A DNA stretch of 13,524 bases, from assembly GCA_019090295.1 (NCBI GenBank), contig JAHRWG010000307.1, positions 1 to 13,524 of the forward strand, given 5' to 3'. The notes beneath the pieces are model-generated. The model was not told where the DNA came from, did not search any database, and saw only the letters and a program-made list of their open reading frames with translations. Within the stretch, counting starts at the first letter, position 1. The number at the start of each line of letters is the position of its first letter. The stretch is from Cycloclasticus sp. Its GTDB lineage: Bacteria > Pseudomonadota > Gammaproteobacteria > Methylococcales > Cycloclasticaceae. The translations under genes and the position numbers were made by a program. Below are positions 1 to 13,524 of the stretch, piece after piece.

Positions 1-87
1 ACTGCTAAATCAATAGACAAGACTAAGCATGTAGATCCATAGGCAGAGTGCTGACGGACGCGGGTTCGATCCCCGCCGCCTCCACCA
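1..87 (+). ncRNA. ssrA: tmRNA (ssrA), 3' end only
   Basis: This is the 3' portion of transfer-messenger RNA, which rescues stalled ribosomes with SmpB. The 5' part and the tag-coding segment lie outside the window. The sequence shows a T arm (stem GCGGG at 60-64 paired with CCCGC at 72-76, loop TTCGATC), an acceptor strand and an encoded CCA at 85-87. The upstream stretch around 22-34 (GACTAAGCATGTAG-like) resembles the conserved region before the tRNA-like domain in gammaproteobacterial ssrA. An intrinsic terminator follows directly. The ssrA 3' end is a well-known attachment site for integrative elements, which fits the accessory genes downstream. A plain tRNA is less likely because no D arm or anticodon arm can be built in the 60 bases upstream. 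Confidence 0.88.
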
Positions 88-93
88 AATACG

Positions 94-125
94 AAACCCC
101 AACTGTTATCAGTTGGGGTTTTTTA
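94..125 (+). terminator. Intrinsic terminator of ssrA
   Basis: A perfect 11-bp stem (95-105 paired with 110-120, AACCCCAACTG with its complement) closes a TTAT loop and is followed by a T run to 124. It sits 7 bases after the CCA end of the tmRNA, so it is the rho-independent terminator of ssrA. It also insulates the downstream operon from ssrA transcription. Confidence 0.93.
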
Positions 126-529
126 TTGCCTGCGCCCCGCGCTACAGGCCTTGTGTGGCAAGGGTTTACGGACTTCGCACCGTTTTTAATCACGGACTTT
201 TCAAGGCATGTATTCTCTGAATTGCCGAATACTCTCTGTCGCTCTCTCGCCTGCTCAGTGCCGAAGTCCATGACTGGAGAACAGAGAACCCTTTAAAATC
301 AGCAGCTTATTATCGGACTAATCAAAAGGTTTGTTGGGTGAATTGGTTGAGCTGAAGGGAACAAACAAATCTATCTTTATTTAAATAATGAGTTGATAAG
401 TACTTCAATACGAGCGTTCATAGCTGCAAGTCAAGTATCACAAGGCCTGTAACGAAATGACGAAACTCACCCCACTCCCTTACCTGCAAAATCGTTGATG
501 ACTAGGGCAAACCTCCTACCACTTCCTGA
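126..529. other. Non-coding stretch between ssrA and the defence operon
   Basis: I see no convincing gene here on either strand. Short open frames at the left end are shadows of ssrA. Small repeats are present: ACGGACTT occurs directly twice (168-175 and 192-199), and GGACTTCG (170-177) recurs inverted as CGAAGTCC (262-269). In an ssrA-integrated element such short repeats beside the attachment site could be arm-type integrase sites, but that is inference and their length makes chance possible. The stretch from 360 to 400 is AT-rich. A CCTGCAAA at 483-490 resembles half-sites in the operator further downstream. No integrase gene is visible on this side. Confidence 0.6.
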
Positions 530-558
530 TTGTACTGCAAACCGCAATACAGTATATT
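530..558 (+). promoter_or_regulatory. Predicted sigma-70 promoter of the operon
   Basis: A -10-like TATATT (553-558, five of six consensus matches) lies 17 bases after a weak -35-like TTGTAC (530-535). The -10 ends about 34 bases before the preferred start codon of the RHH gene at 592. The promoter is fully embedded in an inverted repeat, as expected for an autoregulated promoter. The -35 match is poor, so the promoter may need derepression or may be intrinsically weak. Confidence 0.55.
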
Positions 559-566
559 GCAGTACA
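531..566. promoter_or_regulatory. Palindromic operator, probably bound by the RHH regulator
   Basis: A perfect 10-bp inverted repeat, TGTACTGCAA (531-540) and TTGCAGTACA (557-566), encloses a second nested inverted repeat, GCAATA (544-549) and TATTGC (555-560). Extra half-site-like elements lie outside it: CTGCAAA at 484-490 and TTTGCAG at 567-573. The repeats cover the predicted -35 and -10. RHH proteins bind tandem short palindromes cooperatively as dimers of dimers, so this layout fits autorepression by the gene that starts at 592. The assignment of the ligand protein is inferred from proximity. Confidence 0.65.
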
Positions 567-591
567 TTTGCAGGCATTTCGGGAGAGTATG

Positions 592-786
592 ATGGCTACC
601 ACCAAAACTGCGACGCTGACTATAAGAGTCGATCCAAACTTGAAGGAGGCGTTGCGCTCAGCAGCTCAAGCGGAGCATCGCTCTATCGCAAACATGATAG
701 AAGTGATGATTCGAGAGCATTGCGAGAAAAACGGTATAGCCATAGAACAATCTCAAGAATCGGACCAACGTGGGGAGCGTTCATAA
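592..786 (+). CDS. Small ribbon-helix-helix (CopG/Arc-type) regulator
   Basis: A 64-residue protein with the RHH layout: an N-terminal beta strand (TKTATLTIRVDPNLK, about residues 3-17) followed by two helices (EALRSAAQAEH and SIANMIEVMIREHCEK), then a polar tail. RHH dimers use the strand to read the major groove. The start at 592 is chosen because GGAG at 582-585 is 6 bases upstream. An ATG at 589 and an in-frame TTG at 568 are also open but badly spaced or non-canonical. The stop codon overlaps the next start as TAATG (784-788), so translation of the ATPase gene is probably coupled to it. It lies just after a palindromic operator, and is therefore likely the operon's autorepressor. An antitoxin role is possible in this fold, but no toxin partner is adjacent. 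Confidence 0.85.
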   Translation: MATTKTATLTIRVDPNLKEALRSAAQAEHRSIANMIEVMIREHCEKNGIAIEQSQESDQRGERS

Positions 787-3700
787 TGATCAAGACGGTT
801 AAACAGGCGTGTCGTTTTAATCCTGTTATTCAGGACTATAGAATGAGCCAGGGAATTGAGAACCTGGCAGATCTAATCACCGACGCCGGTGATGGTAGTG
901 AGTTTTTCTCGCGAAACTTTGTAACTCACGGTATGGAACAACTCTTCCGTGAAGGCATGCTGAGATTGTCAGGCAAATCAGATCAAGCCGTTTTTGAACT
1001 CACCCAAGCCATGGGTGGTGGTAAAACGCACATGATGATCGCCTTGGGCTTACTTGCTAAACATGCTCACTTACGACCAGATGTTCTGCCCGAAGACCTA
1101 AATAACCGATTAGATTTTGGTAATGCACGAATAGCTGCATTTAACGGACGAAACAATCCGGATAATTATATTTGGGGCGAAATTGCCACGCAGCTGGGTG
1201 CTGCCGAAGAAATTAAAGATTATTGGATTAACGGTCCTAAATCTGTCGATCAACAAAAATGGAAAGACATAATCGGTGACACCCCAACACTGATCATGAT
1301 CGATGAGCTACCACCATACTTAGACAACGCCAGTACGCAAGTTTATGGCTCGGGCACACTCGCCAATATGGTTGTCTACAGCTTAAGCGCGTTAATGAGC
1401 GCAGCGTTAGAATTGCCTAATTGCGCTATCGTCATAGCTAATTTATCGGGCAGTTATAAAGCTCAAACAAAAGCACTGACAGACTCAATCTCCAATCTTC
1501 AACAAGAAACCCGACGCCAATCAATGACCATTACCCCGGTACAGCTCTCGGGTAATGAAATATACGAGATTCTTAAAAAGCGCCTTGTCGATGAAATGCC
1601 AGATGAACAGGTCATCAATGACATCGCGGAAGAGTATGCACAGCAAATCAAGAAAGCTGAAGATGGCGGTTACATAATCGCTTCAAGCATTGAACAAATT
1701 GCTGAGCAAGTAAGAGAGACCTACCCATTCCATCCTTCATTTAAACACTTAGTCGCATTATTCAAGGAAAATGAAGGTTTTCGTCAGACACGGGGCCTGA
1801 TGCAGTTCACGGCTCGATTACTCAAAAGCGTCGACCAACGTGAAGCAGATGATGTGTTTTTGATTGGCACACAGCATCTAGATTTAAATGATGAGCAGGT
1901 TAAAGATGAAATTGAAAGAATTTCTCCAAAGCTTGTTCCAGCTGTCACACGAGACATCGCTGACAAAGGTGATGCTATCGCAGAAACAGTCGACGCAGAA
2001 CAAAGCAACGATGCCGCGACTCAGTTAATGACACTATTACTGGCCTCATCACTGTCACGCGCAGTTGGCGGCCGTATCGGCCTATCGGAGAGTGAAATCA
2101 TTGAATTTCTAGCTGCTCCAAATAGAAAGGCCGATGAGTTTCTTGATGCAATACAAAAATTACGTGAGCAAGCCTGGTATCTACATCGTGAAGATCAGCG
2201 CTTCTTTATTAAGGAAACTGAAAACCTTTCTCGCCAAATAGAGCGCAACGCGAAGGAAATCCCACAACCTAAAATTGACCAAGCGCTGATTAATCGACTG
2301 AAAGGCATCCTTCAACCTAGTAGCCGCAACGCCTACCAAGACGTTCAAATCCTGCCTCGAATGAATGAGCTCAAATTAGGCGGCCCTCGCGTACTCATTG
2401 TTATTAAACCCGATGGGAAGGTGCCACCCAGCGAACTCATGAATTTCTTCGAGTTTCAGCAAGAGAAAAATAATTTGCTGGTACTTACCGGGCAAGACAG
2501 CATCATGGCTGATGCTGTAGAAGATCGTCTGCGAGAGCTTTACGCCATTGAGCAAATCAATAAACGTTTGAAAGCCGGTGACACGCTTTATGAAGAAGCT
2601 CGAGACCGATTAGAAGAAGCTGAAGGCCGCTTCACCAAAGCCTTATCTGCCGCCTATAACACCATCTTATTCCCCGGTGTAGATGAGATGGATGGTTCAG
2701 AGCGCTTACTTAAAGTAACCATCGACAATGGCCTGAAAGTCGGCGAAGGCGATCAGTCAGCCGAAGCCCAAATTGAAAAACTAATGGCGGACCCTCGCGC
2801 CAACTACAAACTGGCTGCTGATTTAAAAGACGATTTTGGTCAATTCTTTGCCATGGCCGAATCAGAGCTTTGGCCATCGGGTGCTGGCAACCGTCGCACA
2901 CCATGGAAAGATGTCGTTAATCGTTCCAAGTGCAACCCCGGCTGGCCTTGGATGCCAGGCAGTAGTGGCATGGATACCCTAAAAGCTGAGGCACTTAAGC
3001 AAGGCCGTTGGCGCTTGGGTGAAGATGGTTACATCGAAAAAGGACCATTCCCTAAAGAGAAAACCAGCGTTAACGTGTCATTGCTCAGCACACACCCTGA
3101 CACGGGCGAATCCATTGTTAGTCTCACACCAAGAAACGCGGGTGAAAGCCCCGTAATTCACTACTCAACAAAACCTGAAGTGACAGAGGCCGACCCACAA
3201 GTTGAAGATTTAGAGAGTTTCAGCTCAACAGAAGGCACGCTTTATTTTTCTGTAAGAGACCCAAGCGGAAAGTACGAAGTAGGACCTGCTACTCGATGGG
3301 TAGCAGATTTAAAAATCCGGCACCAAATAGAGCCCTTGGCAGACAAGCGAAAAATCACGCTTCAATGTACGCCCAACGCAGACATGCTTTACACATTGGA
3401 TGGATCTAATCCAAAAGATGGCAAAGCCTATGAAGGGTCATTTGAAATCGGTTCAGATGCTGCGCGTTTGCTGGTTTACGCCAAATCTGGTGAAGCAACC
3501 AAAACCGCCGATTTCCAGATTCCACACAGTGGCGATAAAACCGTTCAAATCGACGATACCAAACCGGCTCGTTTAAACAGCACTAAGCGCGTGCCTCTTG
3601 ATAGTACAGATAAAGTATTTGGCGTAATCAATCGATTCCGAGATCAAGCCTCCACCCAATTCAAGGGGGTTCGGATCGAGATTGGTGAAGGCGAAAATAC

Positions 3701-3917
3701 CGTTGGCATTCGTTTTGGCGAACGTCAAATTACAGCGGCAATGATCGAAAAGACTGTCAATAGCTTGAGAGACTTGCTCAATGAAGCAGATGCCCCAGTC
3801 ACCATTGCGGTGAAAGATGGCATTGAGTTTGAAAATGGCTTCGAAGCGAAAGAATTTGCCAAATTAGTGGGCATTGAGCTTCGCCCTGGTGACATTGCTC
3901 AAGAAGACCTCTCTTAA
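786..3917 (+). CDS. DUF499 P-loop ATPase (COG1483), defence-associated
   Basis: A 1043-residue predicted AAA+-like ATPase. Walker A is AMGGGKTH (K80, T81), in the context ELTQAMGGGKTHMMIALGLL that is typical of DUF499. Walker B is LIMIDE (D173, E174). The C-terminal third is different: around residues 780-910 it shows beta-rich repeats, one with YTLDGSNP (869-876) resembling the Ig-like domain found at the C terminus of chitobiases. The open frame extends upstream to 495, but that stretch is the out-of-frame RHH gene and its operator. The start at 786 has GGGGAG (772-777) 8 bases upstream and overlaps the RHH stop. DUF499 proteins occur in defence islands with DUF1156 methylases, DUF3780 and SNF2 helicases. 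By analogy with BrxC/PglY it may power or license the methylase and nuclease complex, which is inference. It is cytosolic, with no signal peptide or membrane segment. Confidence 0.92.
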   Translation: MIKTVKQACRFNPVIQDYRMSQGIENLADLITDAGDGSEFFSRNFVTHGMEQLFREGMLRLSGKSDQAVFELTQAMGGGKTHMMIALGLLAKHAHLRPDVLPEDLNNRLDFGNARIAAFNGRNNPDNYIWGEIATQLGAAEEIKDYWINGPKSVDQQKWKDIIGDTPTLIMIDELPPYLDNASTQVYGSGTLANMVVYSLSALMSAALELPNCAIVIANLSGSYKAQTKALTDSISNLQQETRRQSMTITPVQLSGNEIYEILKKRLVDEMPDEQVINDIAEEYAQQIKKAEDGGYIIASSIEQIAEQVRETYPFHPSFKHLVALFKENEGFRQTRGLMQFTARLLKSVDQREADDVFLIGTQHLDLNDEQVKDEIERISPKLVPAVTRDIADKGDAIAETVDAEQSNDAATQLMTLLLASSLSRAVGGRIGLSESEIIEFLAAPNRKADEFLDAIQKLREQAWYLHREDQRFFIKETENLSRQIERNAKEIPQPKIDQALINRLKGILQPSSRNAYQDVQILPRMNELKLGGPRVLIVIKPDGKVPPSELMNFFEFQQEKNNLLVLTGQDSIMADAVEDRLRELYAIEQINKRLKAGDTLYEEARDRLEEAEGRFTKALSAAYNTILFPGVDEMDGSERLLKVTIDNGLKVGEGDQSAEAQIEKLMADPRANYKLAADLKDDFGQFFAMAESELWPSGAGNRRTPWKDVVNRSKCNPGWPWMPGSSGMDTLKAEALKQGRWRLGEDGYIEKGPFPKEKTSVNVSLLSTHPDTGESIVSLTPRNAGESPVIHYSTKPEVTEADPQVEDLESFSSTEGTLYFSVRDPSGKYEVGPATRWVADLKIRHQIEPLADKRKITLQCTPNADMLYTLDGSNPKDGKAYEGSFEIGSDAARLLVYAKSGEATKTADFQIPHSGDKTVQIDDTKPARLNSTKRVPLDSTDKVFGVINRFRDQASTQFKGVRIEIGEGENTVGIRFGERQITAAMIEKTVNSLRDLLNEADAPVTIAVKDGIEFENGFEAKEFAKLVGIELRPGDIAQEDLS

Positions 3918-3966
3918 TAAAGACAGAGGCAATCACCGTCGAAGCAGAACTAGCGAGGATAAACTG

Positions 3967-4596
3967 ATGACAAAGGCAACCACAAAAAAAGCAGCGACCA
4001 AATATGCGACGCTTGGCTTTGGCGTGCCCGCGTCCAGCGATCCTCACCACTTTAAAGTCACCATCCCTAAAGCCAATAGCGGCAAGGTACAAATAAGCGA
4101 GTACCTTGGGCTACAAGCGCAAAGCGATGAATTATCAGTCATTGATCGCGTCATCATTGAACGCCCTCGCTGGACCGCGATTCGCGCCGAAGTACAACGC
4201 ACATTCAATGCTCGGTTAAAAAGCCATGGCGTAAAAACAGCCACATGGAAGGTGGGAGAAAACGTCGTTGACCGACTGCTTGGTAAAGAACTTTGTGTGC
4301 TGGCTTGGGCGATTGAAGGTATGGAAATGGATCACATCCCAGTTGCGGTTCGCAACTGGCTGGCGCTTCGCCCTGAAGAGCGTTGGTGGTTATTTGGCAT
4401 GACAGCCATCAGCACTGGCGGAATTAAAGACGGAGATAAGGGTTGGCGATTGGCATTACGGCACGCACTTGGCGATGTTGCTCAAAGTGATCAGCTAAAG
4501 CCCCGAGGCAGAAAGATCGTACCTAATACATTACAGAACGACACTGACCAATATATAGATAGGCCCATGCTCGATCTGTTTGGAGATGAAAATTAA
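3967..4596 (+). CDS. DUF3780 family protein, defence-associated
   Basis: A 209-residue protein recognised as DUF3780 from its FGVPASSDPHHFKVTIPK segment (about residues 17-34) and the core LRPEERWWLFGMTAISTG (about residues 136-153). The family has no known catalytic residues and I see no enzymatic motif. It is almost always found between a DUF499 ATPase and a DUF1156 methylase, as here, which suggests a structural or adaptor subunit. The N terminus is lysine/alanine/threonine-rich (MTKATTKKAATK) and may bind nucleic acid. The ATG at 3967 is preferred over the in-frame ATG at 3874, because the latter lies inside the DUF499 gene while 3967 has GAGG (3955-3958) 8 bases upstream. Its TAA is directly followed by the methylase ATG, a sign of tight co-translation. 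Confidence 0.87.
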   Translation: MTKATTKKAATKYATLGFGVPASSDPHHFKVTIPKANSGKVQISEYLGLQAQSDELSVIDRVIIERPRWTAIRAEVQRTFNARLKSHGVKTATWKVGENVVDRLLGKELCVLAWAIEGMEMDHIPVAVRNWLALRPEERWWLFGMTAISTGGIKDGDKGWRLALRHALGDVAQSDQLKPRGRKIVPNTLQNDTDQYIDRPMLDLFGDEN

Positions 4597-7500
4597 ATGG
4601 CAGAATTAACACCCTTTGCACTGAAAGATGTGCCAGCACTGATTGAAGCAGTATTCCCTGCACAAAAGGTATCTTTTGAAGCTCAACAAGAAAGAACATC
4701 AGTTCAAAGCCAAACTTTGACAGGGCTGGGCTCCTATTGGAAAGGTCGCAAACCGTTAATACTAGTCAGAAGTGTTGTACTTGGATCCTTGCTGCCACAA
4801 ACCGCTGATAATGAAAAAGACCTAGAGATATTTGAAGCCCTAATGGGCTTCGATGATTTAAGTTTAGCGAAACGTGCGATTACGCTGAATTCAATTAAGC
4901 CTACAGATATCATTTCTTCGATAGAATTAAATACCCCTTGGGATTTTTTTACACACAATATTAAGGCTGACGACCCTCAACTTAAGCAAATAGAAGCGTT
5001 AACCGCTCCATTTGATAGTGCGTCAATGGGCCTAAAGCTTAGATGGAGAAGAGATGTAGATCAGACGGATAAGATTCCCTTATTCAGAAAATACCTTGAC
5101 CAATTCCATACGTACGAAGAAAGGTCTTCTCTTTGCAAACGTCCTGAAGAGTGTGATCAAAAGTGGCTCTACCAACATGTATGGCCCAAAGTTAATAAAC
5201 ACCTTTCAAAATATCACATAAATGCTAGCAGTCACCACCAACTCGTTGAGCAATTGGGCATCCTGAAATTCGGTAGAAAACCTCGTGCCGGAGATGTTTT
5301 CTCTGGGGGAGGTTCAATTCCTTTTGAAGCAGCTCGAGTTGGTTGTGATGCATTTGCAAGCGACCTTAACCCTGTTGCTTGCATGTTGACTTGGGGTACA
5401 ACAAGTATCATTGGCGTAGAGCCTGAAGAAAGACTCAAAATCGAGCAAGCACAACAAAAACTAGTAGAAGAAGTTGAAAATGAAATTGATAAGTTAAATA
5501 TTGAAAAAGATTCCGAAGGAAATAGAGCAAAAGCATTTTTATGCTGTTTAGAAGCTCGCTGCCCAGAAACTGGATGGCTTGTTCCATTAATACCAACTCT
5601 TTTAGTATCTAAAGGTAGAAAGGTAATTGCTTATCTTAAGCCTGACTACCCAAACAAACGTTTTCATATTAACTTGAAATCAGGCGTATCCAAAGAGGAG
5701 TTAAAACGGGCGGAAAAAGGCACACTTCAAGATGGTAGCTTACTTTACACTTTAGATGCTAAAACTTATAAAACCCCAATTAAGACATTGCGGGGCGACT
5801 ATAAAGAAGCTGATGGCACTACAAAAAACAGGTTACGAAAATGGAGCAAGCTTGATTTTATGCCCTCTCCTGATGATATTTTTCAAGAGAGAATTTATGC
5901 AATACAATGGATTACTAAAGAAACTGTAGATTTGGGAAGACAAGAAACCTATTTTTCGGCTGTTACTGAGCAGGATATTGAAAGAGAGAGAAAAATTGAG
6001 GCCATTATTCAAGAAAACCTAGAGGAATGGCAAAATGATGGTCTTATTTCTGACTCAGAAATCGAGCCGGGATACAACACAGACCAACCTAAAAGAGAAC
6101 GCGGATGGCAATATTGGCACCATTTATTTACTCCTCGCCAACTGCTAATTGCAAGCGTCGTTAAACAAAAAATAAGAGAGCAAAATCTAGAATTCCAACC
6201 CATTTTGAATCTATCGCTAGCAAAGATGCTTGACTGGTCTAGTAAGCTCTGTCGATACGGAACTGGGGCAGCCAGAGAGTCAATCGCTCAAACATTCTAC
6301 AACCAGGCATACAACACTAATTATTCTTATGGTGTACGTTCTTTTGTGACAGGAAAAAACTATCTTTTCTTAACAAAATCAAATGAGCAAGTTTTTGGAA
6401 AGTTAGAAGTCAAAAATGCTGCTGCAGTTAGCATAACCGATGAATGTGATTTATGGATTACAGATCCCCCATATGCTGACGCAGTAAATTATGATGAGAT
6501 GTCAGAGTTTTTTATTGGCTGGCTACGTAAAAATCCCCCCAAACCCTTTGATGAATGGACCTGGGATTCACGACGCGCATTAGCAATCAAAGGCTCTGGT
6601 GATGATTTCCGCAAAGGCATGGTCAATGCTTATAAAGCGATGGCCGACCACATGCCTGATAATGGCATGCAATGCGTTATGTTCACCCACCAAGATACCG
6701 GCGTATGGTCCGATATGATTGGTATATTCTGGGCTGCAGGATTGCAGGTGGTAGGCGCCTGGTATATCGCTACTGAAACAAGTACCGAGTTAAAAAAAGG
6801 TGGCTATGTTCAAGGCACCGTTATTCTGATGTTACGCAAACGCCCAGCGGGTGAAAATGCGGGCTTTAAACAGCGCTTACTGCCCGCCGTTCGAGCGGAA
6901 GTCAAAAACCAAATTGAAACCATGATGCACCTTAATGGCGAGGTGAAAGATAAGATGGGCGAGCCAGTCTTTAATGATTCTGACTTACAAATGGCAGGTT
7001 ACGCGGCAGCTCTTAAGGTTCTCACATCGTATACCCACATTGGTGGAGAAGATGTCACAACGTTTGCGTTGCGCCCTCGAACCAAAGGTGAAATCACGGT
7101 TGTGGATGAGATCGTTCAACAAGCTGCCGAAGCCGCTAACAGCTTGTTAGTCCCTGAGGGGTTAAGTACGGATACCTGGCAGAAGCTGAGTGGTATTCAA
7201 CGCTTTTATTTACGCATGATGGACATTGAAACCACTGGTGCAGCTAAGCTCGATAATTACCAAAACTTCGCTAAAGCCTTCCGTGTTGAAGACTACTCAC
7301 GAGTCATGGGTAGCATGGCTGCCAACAAAGCTCAATTAAAGCGAATTCCTGAGTTTGCCTCGCGTGACTTAACTGAAAGCAACGAGATCGGCTCAACCTG
7401 GCTTGGGCACCTCATCATTGGCCTGCAACAATTGTTAGCAGAGACAGACCCGCAGGCAGTCATTAGCCAGCTACAAGCCGACTTACCGGACTTCATGGAA

Positions 7501-7623
7501 ATACGCGCGCTACTAATTGATGTGCTCACATTCATCGAAAACAAAGCACCAGAAAAAGAAACTCGAGACGTTGCTGAAGTACTCGGTGCGCGATTGAAAA
7601 ATATGAGAGCGCTAGGGAATTAA
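4597..7623 (+). CDS. DUF1156 adenine-type DNA methyltransferase (COG1743)
   Basis: A 1008-residue amino-methyltransferase. The N terminus has the DUF1156 signature (FPAQKVSFEAQQER, then RKPLILVRSVVLGSLLP, residues 20-67). The AdoMet-binding motif I is DVFSGGGS (233-240), followed by ASDLNPVACML (motif II region). Catalytic motif IV is DPPY (623-626). About 380 residues separate motifs I and IV and include a cysteine-containing segment (CCLEARCPETGW) and probably the target-recognition region, an alpha-group-like order. DPPY is typical of N6-adenine methylases (N4-cytosine less likely). The probable role is to mark self DNA so the partner helicase/nucleases spare it. The start abuts the DUF3780 stop, with GGAG at 4582-4585. 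Base composition is odd: the part up to about 6480 is clearly AT-rich and the last third is GC-richer, suggesting mosaic origin. Confidence 0.92.
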   Translation: MAELTPFALKDVPALIEAVFPAQKVSFEAQQERTSVQSQTLTGLGSYWKGRKPLILVRSVVLGSLLPQTADNEKDLEIFEALMGFDDLSLAKRAITLNSIKPTDIISSIELNTPWDFFTHNIKADDPQLKQIEALTAPFDSASMGLKLRWRRDVDQTDKIPLFRKYLDQFHTYEERSSLCKRPEECDQKWLYQHVWPKVNKHLSKYHINASSHHQLVEQLGILKFGRKPRAGDVFSGGGSIPFEAARVGCDAFASDLNPVACMLTWGTTSIIGVEPEERLKIEQAQQKLVEEVENEIDKLNIEKDSEGNRAKAFLCCLEARCPETGWLVPLIPTLLVSKGRKVIAYLKPDYPNKRFHINLKSGVSKEELKRAEKGTLQDGSLLYTLDAKTYKTPIKTLRGDYKEADGTTKNRLRKWSKLDFMPSPDDIFQERIYAIQWITKETVDLGRQETYFSAVTEQDIERERKIEAIIQENLEEWQNDGLISDSEIEPGYNTDQPKRERGWQYWHHLFTPRQLLIASVVKQKIREQNLEFQPILNLSLAKMLDWSSKLCRYGTGAARESIAQTFYNQAYNTNYSYGVRSFVTGKNYLFLTKSNEQVFGKLEVKNAAAVSITDECDLWITDPPYADAVNYDEMSEFFIGWLRKNPPKPFDEWTWDSRRALAIKGSGDDFRKGMVNAYKAMADHMPDNGMQCVMFTHQDTGVWSDMIGIFWAAGLQVVGAWYIATETSTELKKGGYVQGTVILMLRKRPAGENAGFKQRLLPAVRAEVKNQIETMMHLNGEVKDKMGEPVFNDSDLQMAGYAAALKVLTSYTHIGGEDVTTFALRPRTKGEITVVDEIVQQAAEAANSLLVPEGLSTDTWQKLSGIQRFYLRMMDIETTGAAKLDNYQNFAKAFRVEDYSRVMGSMAANKAQLKRIPEFASRDLTESNEIGSTWLGHLIIGLQQLLAETDPQAVISQLQADLPDFMEIRALLIDVLTFIENKAPEKETRDVAEVLGARLKNMRALGN

Positions 7624-7638
7624 GGGTGTAACTAAACA

Positions 7639-10386
7639 ATGACTATTAGACGGTTTTCTTCTCGCACCCATCGGCTCGACAGTAGCTTTTTGCTTGAGCA
7701 TTTAAAAGGTGCTCGCAGCTATAAGCGCATAGCAGGCTACTTCACCAGCTCGCTATTTGAGGTAGCCAATGAGCTGATTGAAGCCATCCCAGAAGTAAAA
7801 ATAGTCTGCAATGTCGACATCCACCCCGATGACCTCAAGGTAGCTCAGCTACGCGAATCAAAAATGATTGGCCGCTGGAATGAGCAAGATATAGAAACCG
7901 AAGCACTTCTCAACCGTGATCAGTACCGCAGGCTTGATAGTTTTTTAGCCAAACATGGTCAAGTCATTCGCGTCGCACCAGATAGTATTTGTGGCTTTCT
8001 TCATGGTAAAGCCGGAGTCATAGAATGCGCTGATGGGCGCAAGCTTGGTTTCATGGGTTCGATGAATGAAACCAGTAGCGGCTGGCAACGTCACTATGAG
8101 ATTTTATGGGAGGATGATTCCCCTGAAGGCGTTGCATGGATTGAAGAAGAGTTTGAATACCTGTGGAATGCCGCTCGCCAATTACCTGATGCTGTCATTC
8201 GAGAAGTGAAGCGCCGTGGTTATCGTCGTGAAATAGTGTTTGATGAGATTGAAGATGACGATGACCTAGCGCCAGCAGCCCTAATCGAATCACCACTTTA
8301 TCGCCAGGGTTTTTCTCTCCAACCCTGGCAGCAAGGTTTTGTTAGTGAGTGTGTCCGTCATTATCACAACCATGGCATTGTTCGCTTACTGATTGCCGAT
8401 GAAGTGGGTTTAGGAAAAACCCTCTCCATGGGCACCGCAGCACTTAGTCTTTGTCTGCTTGGTGACAAAGAAAATAAAAAGAGAAAACCTGTCATCATAT
8501 TTGCGCCAGCTACGCTTTGTGAGCAATGGCAAACAGAAATGATCGATAAGCTAGGTATTCCTTGTGCTCGTTGGCAAACACAAAAGAAAGCCTGGCTTGA
8601 CCCTGAAGGAAGAATAATCTCACCAGTGGGGCAATCTTTCATTGCAAAATGTCCTCTGCGTATAGGTATTGTTTCTACCGGTTTGATGATGCAGGAGTCA
8701 TTAGAAAAAGAATATCTTTTAGGTTTACGCTTTGGCCTGACAATTTTGGATGAGGCACATAAAGCAAGGAGTCGGCAAGGGTTCGGTAAAGACGCAGGCA
8801 GCCACAATAATTTGCTCGCGTTTATGCGAGAGGTTGCCGCCCGCTCTGACCACGTCCTACTAGGAACTGCGACCCCAATACAAACCCAATCAGAAGATCT
8901 TTGGGATTTAATGGGCATTCTGCATCAGGGCGTCGGCAACTTTGTATTAGGGCACGATCTCGCTAAATGGCACCGACCAAAAGAAGTCCTGCCTATTTTA
9001 GCCGGTGAACAACTTGTTAGAGAACCCAGTTTTGCTTGGGAGTTATTGCGCTCCCCATTACCCGTTGTTGATTCAACCAATGAGCAGCACTCCAGGAAGC
9101 TCTTCCGTTCGATCCGAGAAGATCTCGAGCTTATAAATGACAGAAAATGGGATATTAAAAACCCCTTCACCGATTTGTCCGAAGACTCGAGAGATTATTT
9201 GGAAGACGAATTAGACCGGGATATTGCAGGGGCTAGCTTCTTCCAACGAGAAAATCCATTCATTCGCCATATAGTCTTACGTAAGCGCGTAACACTTGAA
9301 GATGCAAACCTGTTACCTCGCATAGGTGTTGATGTTCATCCAGACCGCGACTTAGCCAAAGAAGAACACAAGTTTAATAGTTTATTTGAAGGTAAAGCAC
9401 TTAGAACCAGCGAAGATTTTCGTCAGGCATACGCTGAAGCACGTAACTTCGGCAAAGCTTTATCTCAAAGTGGTAAAGGCAGCGGCTTTATGAAAAACCT
9501 TATGGAGCAAAGGATCTGTTCCAGTATCGCCGCTGGCCTGAATACCGCCCGAAAACTATTAGAAGGCAGAACCATTCAAGAAGAAAACGACGATCAAAAT
9601 ATTGAATTAAAAGCCGAAAGCCCAGACGAAATAGCCGTACTTGAACGGATGATTGCAAGGCTCGAAAGAATTAACGAAGACCCTAAACTGCAAGCTGTTA
9701 TTCATTATCTTGAAAAAGAACAATGGCTCAAACACGGCGTGATCATTTTTAGTCAATACTACGATACCGCAAAATGGGTGGCTGACTCCTTAGCCGCTCG
9801 CTACCCAGATCAGCCTGTAGGTCTATACGCAGGTGCAGGCCGCAGCCGACTTTATCAAAAAGGGGATAGCGTAAATATCGAGCGTGAAACCTTAAAACGC
9901 ATGGTTGCCGAACACCAATTAGAAATTATGGTAGCCACCGATGCCGCTTGTGAGGGTTTAAACCTTCAAACACTTGGTACGTTGATGAATATCGATCTGC
10001 CGTGGAATCCAACCAAACTTGAACAAAGAATTGGACGTATTAAACGGTTTGGTCAAGTGCGAGACAAAGTCGACATGCTCAATTTAGTTAACGAGCAAAC
10101 CGTTGACGAGAAAGTTTACGACAAATTGTCTGAGCGTATGCAAGACAGGTACAACTTATTCGGCTCTCTACCGGACACCATCAAAGATGAGTGGATAGAA
10201 GACATCGAAACCATGGGCGATAAAATGGATGAATACATCGATGCCCAGAAAACCGCCAACGGTTTTGACTTGCGCTATACCTCGACAATGGAACCTACAG
10301 AAAAAGATTGGCGTGACTGTTCTGATGTTTTATCAAGAAGAGATTTTAGTGAATTGATGATGTCAGGATGGAGCGAAACAAAATGA
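7639..10386 (+). CDS. PLD-like nuclease/SNF2 helicase fusion, defence-associated
   Basis: A 915-residue two-part protein. Residues 20-180 are phospholipase D-like: YKRIAGYFTSSLFE, then an HxK motif in FLHGKAGVIE (H122, K124), then GSMNETSSGW (140-149). Only one HxK is visible, and the usual acidic position after four residues is E129 rather than D. The rest is an SF2 SNF2-type motor: LQPWQQGF (about 227), motif I ADEVGLGKT (253-261), motif Ia VIIFAPATLCEQW, motif II DEAH (371-374), motif III GTATP (409-413), motif V VATDAACEGLNLQ (765-777) and motif VI QRIGRIKRFGQ (796-806) with R797 and R800. It probably translocates on and cuts or remodels unmodified DNA. It starts 15 bases after the methylase stop; AAGGG at 7622-7626 is rather distant. 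DISARM keeps its PLD and SNF2 activities on separate proteins; here they are fused. Confidence 0.92.
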   Translation: MTIRRFSSRTHRLDSSFLLEHLKGARSYKRIAGYFTSSLFEVANELIEAIPEVKIVCNVDIHPDDLKVAQLRESKMIGRWNEQDIETEALLNRDQYRRLDSFLAKHGQVIRVAPDSICGFLHGKAGVIECADGRKLGFMGSMNETSSGWQRHYEILWEDDSPEGVAWIEEEFEYLWNAARQLPDAVIREVKRRGYRREIVFDEIEDDDDLAPAALIESPLYRQGFSLQPWQQGFVSECVRHYHNHGIVRLLIADEVGLGKTLSMGTAALSLCLLGDKENKKRKPVIIFAPATLCEQWQTEMIDKLGIPCARWQTQKKAWLDPEGRIISPVGQSFIAKCPLRIGIVSTGLMMQESLEKEYLLGLRFGLTILDEAHKARSRQGFGKDAGSHNNLLAFMREVAARSDHVLLGTATPIQTQSEDLWDLMGILHQGVGNFVLGHDLAKWHRPKEVLPILAGEQLVREPSFAWELLRSPLPVVDSTNEQHSRKLFRSIREDLELINDRKWDIKNPFTDLSEDSRDYLEDELDRDIAGASFFQRENPFIRHIVLRKRVTLEDANLLPRIGVDVHPDRDLAKEEHKFNSLFEGKALRTSEDFRQAYAEARNFGKALSQSGKGSGFMKNLMEQRICSSIAAGLNTARKLLEGRTIQEENDDQNIELKAESPDEIAVLERMIARLERINEDPKLQAVIHYLEKEQWLKHGVIIFSQYYDTAKWVADSLAARYPDQPVGLYAGAGRSRLYQKGDSVNIERETLKRMVAEHQLEIMVATDAACEGLNLQTLGTLMNIDLPWNPTKLEQRIGRIKRFGQVRDKVDMLNLVNEQTVDEKVYDKLSERMQDRYNLFGSLPDTIKDEWIEDIETMGDKMDEYIDAQKTANGFDLRYTSTMEPTEKDWRDCSDVLSRRDFSELMMSGWSETK

Positions 10387-10466
10387 GTGTGAAGAAAGTT
10401 ATCACCTACGATCAGATTATGGTTCCAGTCAAAATCGCTTTGGTAAGTTTGGTTACCTATAGATAA
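10383..10466 (+). pseudogene. 5' remnant of an Mrr-type gene (27 codons)
   Basis: The ATG overlaps the stop of the PLD-helicase (ATGA, 10383-10386), the way a true operon gene would begin. The 27-residue product contains ITYDQIMVPVKIALVSL, which aligns without gaps to residues 2-18 of the Mrr-type protein starting at 13242 (ITYDQLMLPLMKALVNL). I count 11 identities in the 18 positions that start one residue earlier. Similarity stops abruptly after codon 23 (10451), and a TAA follows at 10464. The stop sits on the Shine-Dalgarno of the UvrD-like gene (AAGGAT, 10465-10470), so translation of the remnant may help initiation there. Most likely this is the stump of an earlier mrr gene displaced by insertion of the UvrD-like gene. 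It could also survive as a short coupling leader. Confidence 0.72.
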
Positions 10467-10477
10467 GGATATTTAGA

Positions 10478-13150
10478 ATGGCAGGTATTGATTTTTCTCC
10501 ACTAGCAGAAGACACGCTGTCTACGTTCTCAGAAATTGCTGATAACGCAACAGACAAGCTAAGAACTGAGAACAGCCTCGGAACGGATAGCTTTGCCAGT
10601 GGCAATACGCTTACCGGAAATCAAGCCTTTCAAAACCTTGCCAGCATTCAAAATAGCAATCACGAACAGCTAATCAATCTCAGCAAAGAACCAGCGATAG
10701 CACGCCTTGTTATTGAAGACGACAACGACAATCAACGAGTTATCTACATTGCACGAAACGCTAACTTACGCTTGCCATCAGGCAAGTCATTTGCCAGTTA
10801 TCGCTCCCCCATTGGCCGGTTAGCTGAAGTTGCATTAGGCGACGAAGCTAAGGTTCATCTCGATGGGATAGATCAGCTGTTTTATGTCATTGAAAAGACT
10901 AGCCTACGGCCCAAAAAGGAAACTGAAGGGTGGGATTCAAGTCAAACTCAGTATCGCCATTATGACAAAGGCGCTTATTCCATTGAATCTTTGCGTGCTC
11001 TTTTACAAGCAGACGGATTCGATAGTGCCGACGAACTGGATCAACTATTAGAACAGGCAGAAATGCAAAGTGGCGTTTCGGCCGGTATTAGCCACCAGGT
11101 TCGTACTGCGATGGGATTGCGAGACCAGCCTATATTGGATCAATTTCAAGGTGCGATATTTCGACTTCCCTTGAATAGCCAACTTATTATCCTTGGGCCT
11201 CCTGGCACAGGAAAAACTACCACACTTATTAAACGTCTGGGACAAAAGCTGGATATAGAATCCCTAGAAGCTGAAGAAAAGCGGCTTACCGAAACATCTA
11301 AAGATCAAGCTCCACACCAGTCTAGCTGGATAATGTTTACGCCTTCAGAGTTACTTAAACATTACTTGAAAGAGGCTTTTAGCCGAGAGCAGGTGCCAGC
11401 GTCAGACTCACATATCAGGACATGGATAAGCTTCCGAAATGATATTGCTCGAAATACTTTGGGGATCCTACGAACTGCCAATGGTGGAAAATTTACGTTA
11501 AAGAACGAGTTATCCAACCTATCCCCTGCTGTGGTTGAAGATGCTAGCAGTTGGTATGAGTCTTTTGAGAACTTTCATGAGCAACGATTAAAAAGCCAAC
11601 TGAAAGACGGAGCAGCCATCGCCATTACTGCTGCCCCCGAAGACGCTGTCACCGTATCAGAAAACCTAAAACAACCAGGTAACGAGATTGAATCGCGTAA
11701 ATTAATAGACATTTACCGTGACCTAGAAAACTTTGAAGACACTTTTAAATCCGCATTAAATGATTCAAAAACTATTGCCGAAGATTTGTTAAAGAAAGAG
11801 CGAAACCGTCTTTACAATAATGATAAAGAGGTGTTTCAAAGATTAGCCAAACATCTAGAAACTCTTCAGCAAGAAAATGAACCAGATGAAGAAGAGTTGT
11901 TCGATGAAGATGAGCAAGATGAAACATCTACTCTGAACAGCACTACAATACAAGTCGCGGTAAAAGCTTATCTATCATCTCTTCGAGCATTAGCAAGAAC
12001 AAAATACCTTAAACGTAGCATGCCCAAAAAATCGCGGTCATCATCAATCATTCAGTTTCTTGATGCCGCTGTGCCTAATGACGATATTTTGTTTGAGATA
12101 GGCAAGCATATTAGCTTTCAAAATGGATTGCGCCGTTTTATTAATAGTCACAAACGCTATGTAACTGACATTCCCACGAGCTATCGAGTTTTCAGAAAAG
12201 ACAAAAGAATTTTAGAAGATTTCTATAGCTCCGAAGTAATAAATACACCTCAACTGTCAAGTATTGAGCTGGATGCCATAATTCTGTTAATGCTAAGAAA
12301 ATCTAAGCAATTAATGGCGCAAAATTATGTAGACAAATCCCTTGATGAACCCAAGTATTCTTATCTGGCGGTTATATCAGGCCTATTCAAAAATCAAATC
12401 ATGGTAGACGAAGCGACCGACTTTTCAATGTTACAGCTTGCTTGCATGGAGAGTTTAACCTCTCTAAAGAGCAAATCGTTTTTCGCATGTGGGGATTTCA
12501 ATCAACGAATCACGTCTTCTGGTATTCGCAATCAACAGCAACTGAGCTGGATTTCGTCCCATCTTTCAGTAGAAACAATCCAGATCGTTTATCGGCAGAG
12601 CAAGACATTAAATGCTTTTGCAGGCGAGCTACTACGAACACAAGGTGGCGATTTAAGTGCGCTAGGCATAGTTCCTGAGGAGAGCAATCATATTGGTGTC
12701 AAGCCAGTGCTTTACGAAAATGCAGGAGACAGCGGGGCTGTAACTTGGATAGCGGAGCGAATTATGGAAGTGGAACGCGCAGTACAGCAATTACCGACCA
12801 TTGCTGTACTGGTTAATTCTGAAGAAGAAGTAAAACCAATGGCCGAACAACTGGCTAGTTATCTAGAAGAAATTAATCTCAGCGTAGTAGCCTGTGAAGA
12901 AGGAAAAGCACTTGGAGAAGGAACTGACATCCGAGTATTTGATATTCAGCACATTAAAGGTCTTGAATTTGAGGCCGTATTTTTCGCTGGTATCGATAAA
13001 TTAGCCCAAGATAAGCCTGACCTTTTTGACCGCTATCTTTATGTGGGAACCACACGAGCGGCAACCTATTTAGGCCTAGTCTGCAATAGCTCTTTACCAG
13101 CATCTGTAGAATCCCTCAGAGATAGTTTTGATTCATGCTGGCGAGCATAG
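10478..13150 (+). CDS. UvrD-superfamily (SF1) helicase with GreA/B-like N-terminal domain
   Basis: An 890-residue SF1 ATPase. Motif I is GPPGTGKTTT (240-249); motif II is VDEATD (D644, E645), a variant of the usual DExxD; motif III is GDFNQR (672-677); motif IV includes YRQS; motif V is HIKGLEFEAVF (825-835); motif VI is YVGTTRA (855-861). About 400 residues separate motifs I and II, longer than in UvrD itself, with a very acidic patch near 466-484. Residues 75-143 contain RSPIGRLAEVALGDE followed by a strand and FYVIEKTSL. This resembles the C-terminal FKBP-like domain of GreA/GreB, which contacts RNA polymerase. No nuclease motif is seen. The role in the locus is unknown; DNA/RNA unwinding or action on transcription complexes is inferred. 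GGAT at 10467-10470 is 7 bases before the start. It sits between an mrr remnant and an intact mrr, so it looks inserted. Confidence 0.85.
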   Translation: MAGIDFSPLAEDTLSTFSEIADNATDKLRTENSLGTDSFASGNTLTGNQAFQNLASIQNSNHEQLINLSKEPAIARLVIEDDNDNQRVIYIARNANLRLPSGKSFASYRSPIGRLAEVALGDEAKVHLDGIDQLFYVIEKTSLRPKKETEGWDSSQTQYRHYDKGAYSIESLRALLQADGFDSADELDQLLEQAEMQSGVSAGISHQVRTAMGLRDQPILDQFQGAIFRLPLNSQLIILGPPGTGKTTTLIKRLGQKLDIESLEAEEKRLTETSKDQAPHQSSWIMFTPSELLKHYLKEAFSREQVPASDSHIRTWISFRNDIARNTLGILRTANGGKFTLKNELSNLSPAVVEDASSWYESFENFHEQRLKSQLKDGAAIAITAAPEDAVTVSENLKQPGNEIESRKLIDIYRDLENFEDTFKSALNDSKTIAEDLLKKERNRLYNNDKEVFQRLAKHLETLQQENEPDEEELFDEDEQDETSTLNSTTIQVAVKAYLSSLRALARTKYLKRSMPKKSRSSSIIQFLDAAVPNDDILFEIGKHISFQNGLRRFINSHKRYVTDIPTSYRVFRKDKRILEDFYSSEVINTPQLSSIELDAIILLMLRKSKQLMAQNYVDKSLDEPKYSYLAVISGLFKNQIMVDEATDFSMLQLACMESLTSLKSKSFFACGDFNQRITSSGIRNQQQLSWISSHLSVETIQIVYRQSKTLNAFAGELLRTQGGDLSALGIVPEESNHIGVKPVLYENAGDSGAVTWIAERIMEVERAVQQLPTIAVLVNSEEEVKPMAEQLASYLEEINLSVVACEEGKALGEGTDIRVFDIQHIKGLEFEAVFFAGIDKLAQDKPDLFDRYLYVGTTRAATYLGLVCNSSLPASVESLRDSFDSCWRA

Positions 13151-13241
13151 CTTAACCAATGACTTTAATGGATGGTCTAGTTAAATACGATACGAAAAGA
13201 TTAATATAAGTAGCAACGCTCACGTTAGAACAGGATATAAA

Positions 13242-13524
13242 ATGATAACCTACGACCAGCTTATGCTGCCATTGATGAAGGCCCTCGTTAATTTGGGTGG
13301 TTCTGGCAGCATCGATGAAATGTACGAAGAAGTTGTCGAGCTAGAAAAGTTTGACGAAGATACGCTGGCCGTTTTACACAATCCTGAGAAAAGCAGCCAG
13401 ACAGAAATCGGCTATCGCTTGGCCTGGGCACGCACTTATCTTAAAAAAGCAGGATATTTAGAAAACTCAGCGCGTGGTGTTTGGGCGCTAACAGATAAGG
13501 CAAGACAGTCAGAAGAGATTGATA
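13242..13524 (+). CDS. Mrr-type restriction protein, N-terminal part (runs off window)
   Basis: The first 94 codons are visible and the gene continues beyond the window. The sequence matches the Mrr N-terminal winged-helix domain: LMLPLMKALVNLGGSGSIDEMYEEV (about residues 7-31), then IGYRLAWARTYLKKAGYLENSARGVWALTDKA (about 58-89), with the characteristic WArtyLkkaG and rGvWaLT pattern. In Mrr-family proteins this DNA-binding domain precedes a PD-(D/E)xK nuclease that often acts on methylated DNA. The nuclease part is not in view, so activity is inferred. AGGAT (13232-13236) gives a good ribosome-binding site 5 bases before the ATG. The gene follows the UvrD-like gene after 91 bases on the same strand. 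Its first 18 codons are echoed by the remnant at 10383, so its ancestral place was probably right after the PLD-helicase. Confidence 0.85.
   Translation, partial: MITYDQLMLPLMKALVNLGGSGSIDEMYEEVVELEKFDEDTLAVLHNPEKSSQTEIGYRLAWARTYLKKAGYLENSARGVWALTDKARQSEEID

Follow-up and report, generated by a model that had tools for sequence, protein, structure and literature searches.

Gene content of the locus

We analyzed a whole contig of 13,524 nt (C332; JAHRWG010000307.1) from the draft genome of Cycloclasticus sp. (GCA_019090295.1; 2.15 Mb in 375 contigs, 80.9% complete). We refer to this contig as the window. It carries a defence locus of seven genes, all on the + strand (Table 1): a small ribbon-helix-helix (RHH) gene, a four-gene core, a gene for a UvrD-family helicase, and an Mrr-type restriction gene (mrr) that is still open where the contig ends. 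The seven genes fit a single operon, with a one-base overlap between the RHH stop and the DUF499 start (at 786) and with the DUF3780 and methylase genes directly adjacent. What is new at this locus is the helicase, which resembles the RNA polymerase recycling factor HelD, along with the spread of its relatives over several methylation-based systems and an operator-like motif that is shared by RHH genes of unlike systems.

A sequence-only reading of this DNA had described seven same-strand genes that form a defence locus, with an ATPase, a methylase, and a PLD-SNF2 protein, plus an RHH protein, an accessory helicase, and Mrr. Every gene lies where that reading placed it, and the profile matches give the expected domains. 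Two features were absent from it: the 3' end of the tmRNA at 1-87, and a remnant of an mrr-type gene at 10383-10466.

Table 1. Features of the window, with the evidence for each
Feature	Position	Strand	Evidence
3' end of host tmRNA (ssrA), host flank	1..87	+	Rfam RF00023, 67.8 bits; cut at contig start
Zone where host-type sequence ends and defence locus begins; contains promoter region	326..591	+	Comparison with congener G729
Inverted repeat TGTACTGCAA/TTGCAGTACA, arms 531-540 and 557-566	531..566	.	Upstream of RHH gene
15-bp operator-like motif GCAGTACATTTRCAG	559..573	+	Ends 18 bases before RHH start
RHH (CopG/Arc-like) protein, probable autoregulator, 64 aa	592..786	+	RHH_1 PF01402, 29 bits, 8e-7
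DUF499 AAA+ ATPase with Fn3-like domain	786..3917	+	NF042962 1542.6 bits (cut-off 1200); PF04465; Fn3_assoc; Walker A GGGKT
DUF3780 protein, Type-2 BR marker	3967..4596	+	NF042961 276.9 bits (cut-off 200); PF12635 257.6 bits
DUF1156 adenine DNA methylase	4597..7623	+	NF042963 1348 bits (cut-off 1000); PF06634; DPPY at residue 623
PLD (HKD) nuclease-SNF2 helicase fusion	7639..10386	+	NF042964 1220.5 bits (cut-off 1100); PLDc_2, SNF2-rel_dom, Helicase_C
Remnant of mrr-type gene 5' end, 84 bp, 27 codons and stop; overlaps PLD-SNF2 stop	10383..10466	+	Resembles downstream mrr
HelD-like accessory helicase, 890 aa	10478..13150	+	UvrD_C_2 49.2 bits and partial UvrD matches
Mrr-type restriction gene, N-terminal domain only	13242..13524	+	Mrr_N PF14338 75.6 bits; contig ends, nuclease domain outside view

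The core is a Type-2 BREX-Related system

All four core genes exceed the cut-offs of NCBIfam equivalogs that are named "anti-phage-associated," and the best PADLOC models agree with the NCBIfam assignments. As described by Rakesh & Krishnan 2026 (PMC12839542), Type-2 BREX-Related (BR) systems combine a DUF499 ATPase, a DUF1156 N6-methylase, a SNF2 helicase with an N-terminal HKD domain, and a standalone DUF3780 protein. DUF3780 and the N-terminal HKD/PLD helicase are the signature of the type, and in 53% of Type-2 BR taxa, DUF499 has an Fn3-like domain before its C-terminal RRM (PMC12839542). The window has all four genes. Its DUF499 protein has an Fn3_assoc domain at residues 859-894, and its PLD-SNF2 protein has PLDc_2 at residues 18-176, with HGK..GSMNE invariant in 13 of 13 aligned rows. 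(Pfam lists no TUDOR domain in the PLD-SNF2 protein, and no further search was aimed at TUDOR.) Since every Type-2 BR feature that we tested is present, the core is, judged by its sequence, a member of this published and already known class. To the class as published, the window adds the RHH, helicase, and mrr genes; none of the words UvrD, Mrr, RHH, or ribbon appears in the main text of PMC12839542.

The sequence-only reading had instead seen a resemblance to a hybrid of BREX and DISARM, without pglZ and drmA/drmB in view. That absence is confirmed: none of the seven proteins has a Pfam domain for PglZ, BrxC (DUF6079), or DrmB (DUF1998), and the PADLOC matches of the window's proteins, up to the contig end at 13524, include no PglZ or DUF6079 (for PLD-SNF2, among the best 25 of 51 matches). 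The PLD-SNF2 protein does match DrmA (114 bits) and DrmD (158 bits), but these are cross-matches in the helicase core, as compared to 1486 bits for its own PADLOC model. Within the window, then, we find neither the BREX pair (PglZ and BrxC/DUF6079) nor the DISARM pair (DrmA and DrmB). We reject the hybrid because the core belongs to a published class with equivalog models of its own. The Hma or Type-1 BR system (HmaA helicase, HmaB methylase, and HmaC DUF499 protein) follows a common three-part logic, but the window's matches to it (PADLOC HmaC, 160 bits; HmaB, 76 bits) are far weaker than those to the Type-2 models. Type-1 BR as described consists of the ATPase, the methylase, and the helicase only (PMC12839542).

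The four core genes show conserved co-occurrence, the lack of which the sequence-only reading had named as a refutation. In a sample of 398 genomes of the phylum, DUF3780 was found in 2, one of them the window's own. Scanning viral contigs for PLD-SNF2 gave seven loci, and a second scan gave the same set; phage records gave no near match. Where the core gene order is visible in the relatives on plasmids and viral contigs, it is kept, with extra genes interposed in some. Four BR loci (L094, L095, L096, and L098) have two extra conserved genes before the methylase (about 220-330 and 350-400 amino acids as called; clusters c26 and c27).

The accessory helicase resembles HelD

The "UvrD" protein has a Gre-like N-terminal module (residues about 1-145) and a superfamily 1 (SF1) core (218-890) with a helical insert (about 350-635). 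HelD, which is a recycling motor for RNA polymerase in B. subtilis and M. smegmatis, has the same domain order: a Gre-like N-terminal module precedes an SF1 core whose domain 1 contains a helical insertion (PMC7749165). This motor both opens the polymerase and displaces nucleic acids (PMC7749165). In a sequence-profile search of the PDB, the sole match of the window's protein at E 0.001 was HelD (residues 826-881). When we compared the AlphaFold model to the PDB with Foldseek, HelD chains took ranks 1-7 (best 2.9e-16) and UvrD appeared from rank 8 (2.2e-8). HelD 6zca aligned to residues 6-887 of the model, with a poor root-mean-square deviation. The model has helices at 7-33 and 48-69, strands from 74, and the SF1 core, in which the helical insert lies between K246 of Walker A and D644 of Walker B; the tip of the hairpin has low confidence.

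The window's helicase differs from HelD in its 890 amino acids and larger insert, and it scored 32, 23.5, and 19.7 bits against curated HelD/HelR sequence models whose cut-offs are 1100, 1051, and 750. Because these scores are far below the cut-offs, we describe it as HelD-like and not as HelD. Also unlike HelD, its relatives among the loci that we fetched are mostly from Pseudomonadota, and they often lie within defence operons.

The "Gre-like" label had already been given in the sequence-only reading, and we agree with it. An alignment of 41 N-termini matched 18 Gre-type sequences (those picked by a motif filter from 31 loci) with an hhalign probability of 91.7% over 64 columns, at residues 75-140. 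Among the controls, none of 21 unrelated families exceeded 1.7, none of 20 column shuffles exceeded 1.9, and reversal gave 0.2. Pfam's GreA_GreB C-terminal domain was detected weakly in 1 of the 10 N-termini scanned, which included the window's (L032, E 0.023), and a profile search of the PDB with the N-terminus by itself returned no Gre, just weak unrelated matches (best E 0.019). The rows of the structure comparison mostly cover residues 211-890, so the predicted Gre-like fold of this module is based on the profile match and on the model's secondary structure as we read it, with a hairpin and a beta domain.

Another helicase of similar build is ArmD of ARMADA Type II, a UvrD-family helicase with an N-terminal RelE-like domain and with Walker A and B residues at 266 and 454 (PMC12458937). 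Going by the description of ArmD in that source, both proteins are SF1 subunits of the UvrD family with an extra N-terminal domain, and both belong to a methylase-bearing defence operon. The window's helicase differs in having its Walker A and B residues at 246 and 644 and a Gre-like N-terminus. ARMADA Type II would also call for a YprA-like ArmC together with BrxHII-like and PglX-like genes; in the window's proteins, up to the contig end at 13524, Pfam found no YprA/DUF1998-type domain.

Relatives of the helicase in other defence systems

We surveyed 81 loci with relatives of the helicase: the best 80 of 158 loci from genomes and one viral contig. (Scanning viral contigs with the single UvrD protein gave no matches, while an alignment as the query gave at least one.) Systems were labelled by membership in protein clusters, with one representative of each cluster scanned, and gene starts were called mechanically at the first start codon, so the gaps below are approximate. 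We assigned 38 of the loci to named systems: 16 to Type III restriction-modification (RM) with SNF2, 12 to Type-1 BREX, 9 to ARMADA-I-like operons, and 1 to BR. The other 43 were classified as "other," which by the cluster rule includes truncated contigs. Rather than being confined to BR, the UvrD-like gene occurs in several types of systems. In a limited literature search, we found no report of an association of HelD-like helicases with such operons.

The helicase has a regular place in two of these systems. In 11 of the 12 Type-1 BREX loci, it lies on the operon's strand between brxC and a pglX-type methylase (in L091, it follows brxL); in 10 of the 11, the called reading frame starts within 4 bases of the end of brxC, and in L049 two genes are interposed. 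Of the 16 Type III RM loci, 13 have the helicase gene placed after SNF2 (or DUF4391) and before the methylase, with mostly short gaps. The exceptions are L021 and L074, with the helicase after the restriction gene, and L035, with the helicase between the methylase and the restriction gene. The DUF4391 cluster is present in 9 of the 16. A recurrent operon (L047, L132, L133, and other Type III RM loci) consists of SNF2, DUF4391, the HelD-like helicase, a Type III methylase, and a Type III restriction helicase; its SNF2 helicase is the PADLOC candidate C3a139 (scanned in L047). In the literature that we searched, a single paper mentions DUF4391.

The ARMADA-I-like operons combine a DrmD/DpdE-like helicase with a DrmMI-like methylase. 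In L017, L019, L020, and L053, the HelD-like gene follows a gene for a protein of 540-660 amino acids and precedes an HNH-cluster gene, and these are possibly a three-gene cassette. The 540-660 amino acid protein has weak similarity to LmuB/DUF2326 in L017. Upstream neighbours in the "other" class and in some ARMADA-I-like loci (n = 29) include PADLOC matches to pAgo, DrmB, Avs1a, and MkoA, with one member each (among 25 of 41 families).

We examined 8 of the 10 plasmid records with the UvrD-like gene: two are Type III RM loci with SNF2-DUF4391-UvrD-methylase, one is ARMADA-I-like (L138), one has a Dnd-like neighbour, and four are other. The Dnd-like case is a Sphingomonas plasmid (L137, 7986-18455), in which the HelD-like helicase and a PLD restriction gene lie by genes annotated as cysteine desulfurase, DUF4007, and PAPS reductase, presumably a Dnd-like phosphorothioation cluster. 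Of 18 plasmid records with a helicase match, 9 were examined (leaving out six from A. baumannii and those from Sinorhizobium, Rhizobium, and Thermomicrobium).

On a quick tree with 90 rows, which has some long branches and ten open forks, there were 19 changes of context, as compared to 38.7 if contexts were shuffled (0 of 200 shuffles were as low). Considering only the named systems, there were 8 changes, and the minimum is 3. Because contexts are clustered yet change more often than they must, the gene is passed on within its operon but is also transferred from one operon to another.

Two independent additions to the operon

The sequence-only reading had suggested that the UvrD-like and Mrr modules might define a distinct subtype. 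This does not hold up in the 18 BR loci whose downstream side is readable (the window, L018, L004-L007, L092-L098, and L139-L143). Each gene is present in only two of them, the UvrD-like gene in the window and L018 and mrr in the window and L097, and each occurs without the other: no mrr was found in L018, and L097 has no UvrD-like gene. These two loci rule out the pair as defining a subtype. The UvrD-like gene and mrr are two independent and sporadic add-ons to the BR operon. Other BR loci have GmrSD/DUF262 (L094 and L139), a DpnII-like nuclease (L098), or other genes in this position, and such sporadic extras fit the published theme of auxiliary nucleases. The window's mrr is 89% identical to that of L097, which includes Mrr_cat.

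Between the stop of PLD-SNF2 and the start of the UvrD-like gene lies the mrr remnant, and mrr itself is 3 kb further on. The remnant (VITYDQIMVPVKIALVSL) aligned to mrr (MITYDQLMLPLMKALVNL) with a score of 57, and the best of 2000 shuffles scored 33; among the 11,719 18-mers of the window, it ranks second only to mrr itself. A diverged remnant is in the same place in L018, a Neptunomonas locus that is complete from the RHH gene to the UvrD-like gene; it scored 33, and the best of 2000 shuffles scored 31. In L097, PLD-SNF2 is directly followed by an intact mrr. Just before the helicase, the window and L018 share the final bases of the remnant, which L012 does not have. These sequences are most simply read as an insertion of the helicase gene at an mrr gene located behind PLD-SNF2, in an ancestor that the window and L018 have in common.

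The tree does not fit this simply. The window's helicase joins that of L012 (Alteromonas; 85% identical, SH-aLRT of 99) first and that of L018 (82%) next. This is awkward for the insertion because L012 is not a BR locus but adjoins DUF6079 and two methylase genes. Either the gene would have had to move from BR into L012, or one of the BR copies would have had to be replaced. L012 is from Alteromonas marina (1-9211 and 9935-12673), and its HelD-like gene is divergent to genes for DUF6079 (BrxC) and two N6/N4 methylases. This is the arrangement of Type-3 BREX, and the opposite flank holds an AcrB-type gene; by the cluster rule, the locus is "other."

An RHH gene and an operator-like motif

Across 2.26 Mb of fetched loci (excluding the copies of the window), there are six further exact copies of GCAGTACATTTRCAG, and every one of them is followed closely by an RHH gene. 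Five are in BR loci (L018, L094, L096, L097, and L098) and one is in the Type III RM/SNF2 locus L047 (5728-5742). Another Type III RM locus, L074, has a near-match of GCAGTACATTTRCAG (about 440-560) along with an RHH gene that shares 68% identity with that of the window. The RHH relatives lie 5' of DUF499 in L018, L094, and L096-L098 and 5' of SNF2 in L074 and L047. In the BR loci L004, L005, and L007, a different small reading frame is in the RHH position, with different upstream sequence. This suggests that the RHH protein and the operator-like motif are an autoregulator module common to unlike defence systems (BR and Type III RM/SNF2).

Proposed role of the helicase, and alternatives

On balance, we favour the view that the "UvrD" protein is a HelD-like accessory helicase that docks on RNA polymerase, in a Type-2 BR operon with two independent additions. 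The RHH protein probably represses the operon via the motif at 559-573. Following PMC12839542 for the core, the DUF1156 methylase would mark the host's DNA, the DUF499 ATPase and the DUF3780 protein would check DNA for the methyl mark, and PLD-SNF2 would translocate and cut unmarked DNA. Mrr would be a backup nuclease against DNA with foreign methylation, and the "UvrD" gene would be a later insertion next to mrr. The Gre-like module could enter the secondary channel of RNA polymerase, and with its SF1 motor and large helical insert, the docked helicase would remove or stall the polymerase. The translocating, methylation-directed restriction machinery could then scan and cut invader DNA that is being transcribed. 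Alternatively, transcription might mark the DNA for inspection.

More tentatively, this HelD-like family, mostly from Pseudomonadota, might be an exchangeable transcription-coupling module of methylation-based immunity that clears or senses RNA polymerase in Type-1 BREX, Type III RM with SNF2, ARMADA-I-like operons, Type-2 BR, and probably Type-3 BREX, and so allows these systems to act on invader DNA under transcription. The sequences themselves show the gene content, the homologies, the mrr remnant, the architecture of the helicase, and its repeated uptake by unlike operons; that it binds polymerase, its part in defence, and the mechanism are inferred. On the other hand, the 43 of 81 relatives outside of named operons weigh against a strict dependency on such systems.

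Those 43 relatives are better accommodated if the helicase functions in repair or plasmid maintenance and travels in defence islands with no part in restriction, as are plasmids L135 and L136, where it lies by mobilisation or repABC genes with no restriction operon adjoining. A bystander would not be expected to have so regular a place inside operons (after brxC and before the methylase in 11 of 12 Type-1 BREX loci, after SNF2/DUF4391 and before the methylase in 13 of 16 Type III RM ones, the gaps being mostly short), nor would its contexts be clustered on the tree, and we consider this idea very improbable. It seems unlikely, although less so, that the UvrD-like gene and mrr are an independent helicase-nuclease system, with a logic like that of Gabija, that landed in the BR operon by chance. 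Outside of Type-1 BREX and Type III RM, nucleases are often encoded 3' of the helicase: among 33 downstream neighbours (31 from "other" or ARMADA-I-like loci and 2 from plasmids), there are 7 HNH_2, 3 GmrSD, and 2 NgoFVII-PLD genes, and in L138 the UvrD and HNH genes overlap. Gabija's GajB is also a UvrD-family helicase beside a nuclease, but it matches the window's helicase at only 28 bits, and to our knowledge GajB has neither a Gre-like module nor a long insert. No GajA model is among the PADLOC matches listed for the window's proteins, and the contig ends within the next gene. Furthermore, the mrr of L097 lies behind PLD-SNF2 with no UvrD-like gene, L018 has the UvrD-like gene and no mrr was found there, and in 11 of 12 Type-1 BREX loci the helicase gene is followed by the pglX-type methylase and not by a nuclease.

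A different possibility is that the helicase is a backup effector: if restriction is blocked, then it would attack RNA polymerase, halt transcription, and abort the infection. In the published view, BREX and BR loci recruit backup effectors (PMC12839542), and HelD's action on RNA polymerase (PMC7749165) would suit such a role. HelD, however, recycles the polymerase and does not kill it, and there is no evidence of toxicity. Our data do not separate this from the docking helicase that we favour; still, we give the backup effector rather little credence.

The HelD likeness of the inserted helicase suggests that some DNA-restriction systems may be transcription-coupled. The operon itself is one more member of a published class; the helicase is of greater consequence. 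If unrelated restriction systems are all served by one HelD-like protein, then translocating, methylation-directed immunity may commonly need a way to deal with RNA polymerase on the DNA that it targets. Gammaproteobacterial RNA polymerase carries the SI3 insertion, so this would also place a HelD-type factor in bacteria with such a polymerase. For RNA polymerases with SI3, alternative recycling mechanisms likely exist (PMC7749165).

The left edge of the locus

Another Cycloclasticus genome (G729) matches the window at 24-88, 127-226, and 261-325, at and behind its tmRNA. Past 325 there is no match (8.1 kb compared), and G729 has other genes there instead; its genome also has no match to the UvrD-like helicase at E 1e-100. 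Because the homology runs to 325 and different genes follow, we place the left edge of the locus within 326-591. Integration of an island exactly at the 3' end of the tmRNA is not supported, as the homology extends behind the tmRNA to 325. Also, the window's draft genome yielded no second copy of the tmRNA end, and in Neptunomonas the tmRNA is on a different and longer contig than L018. The full tmRNA of G729 is followed by other genes, so different members of the genus have different surroundings of ssrA.

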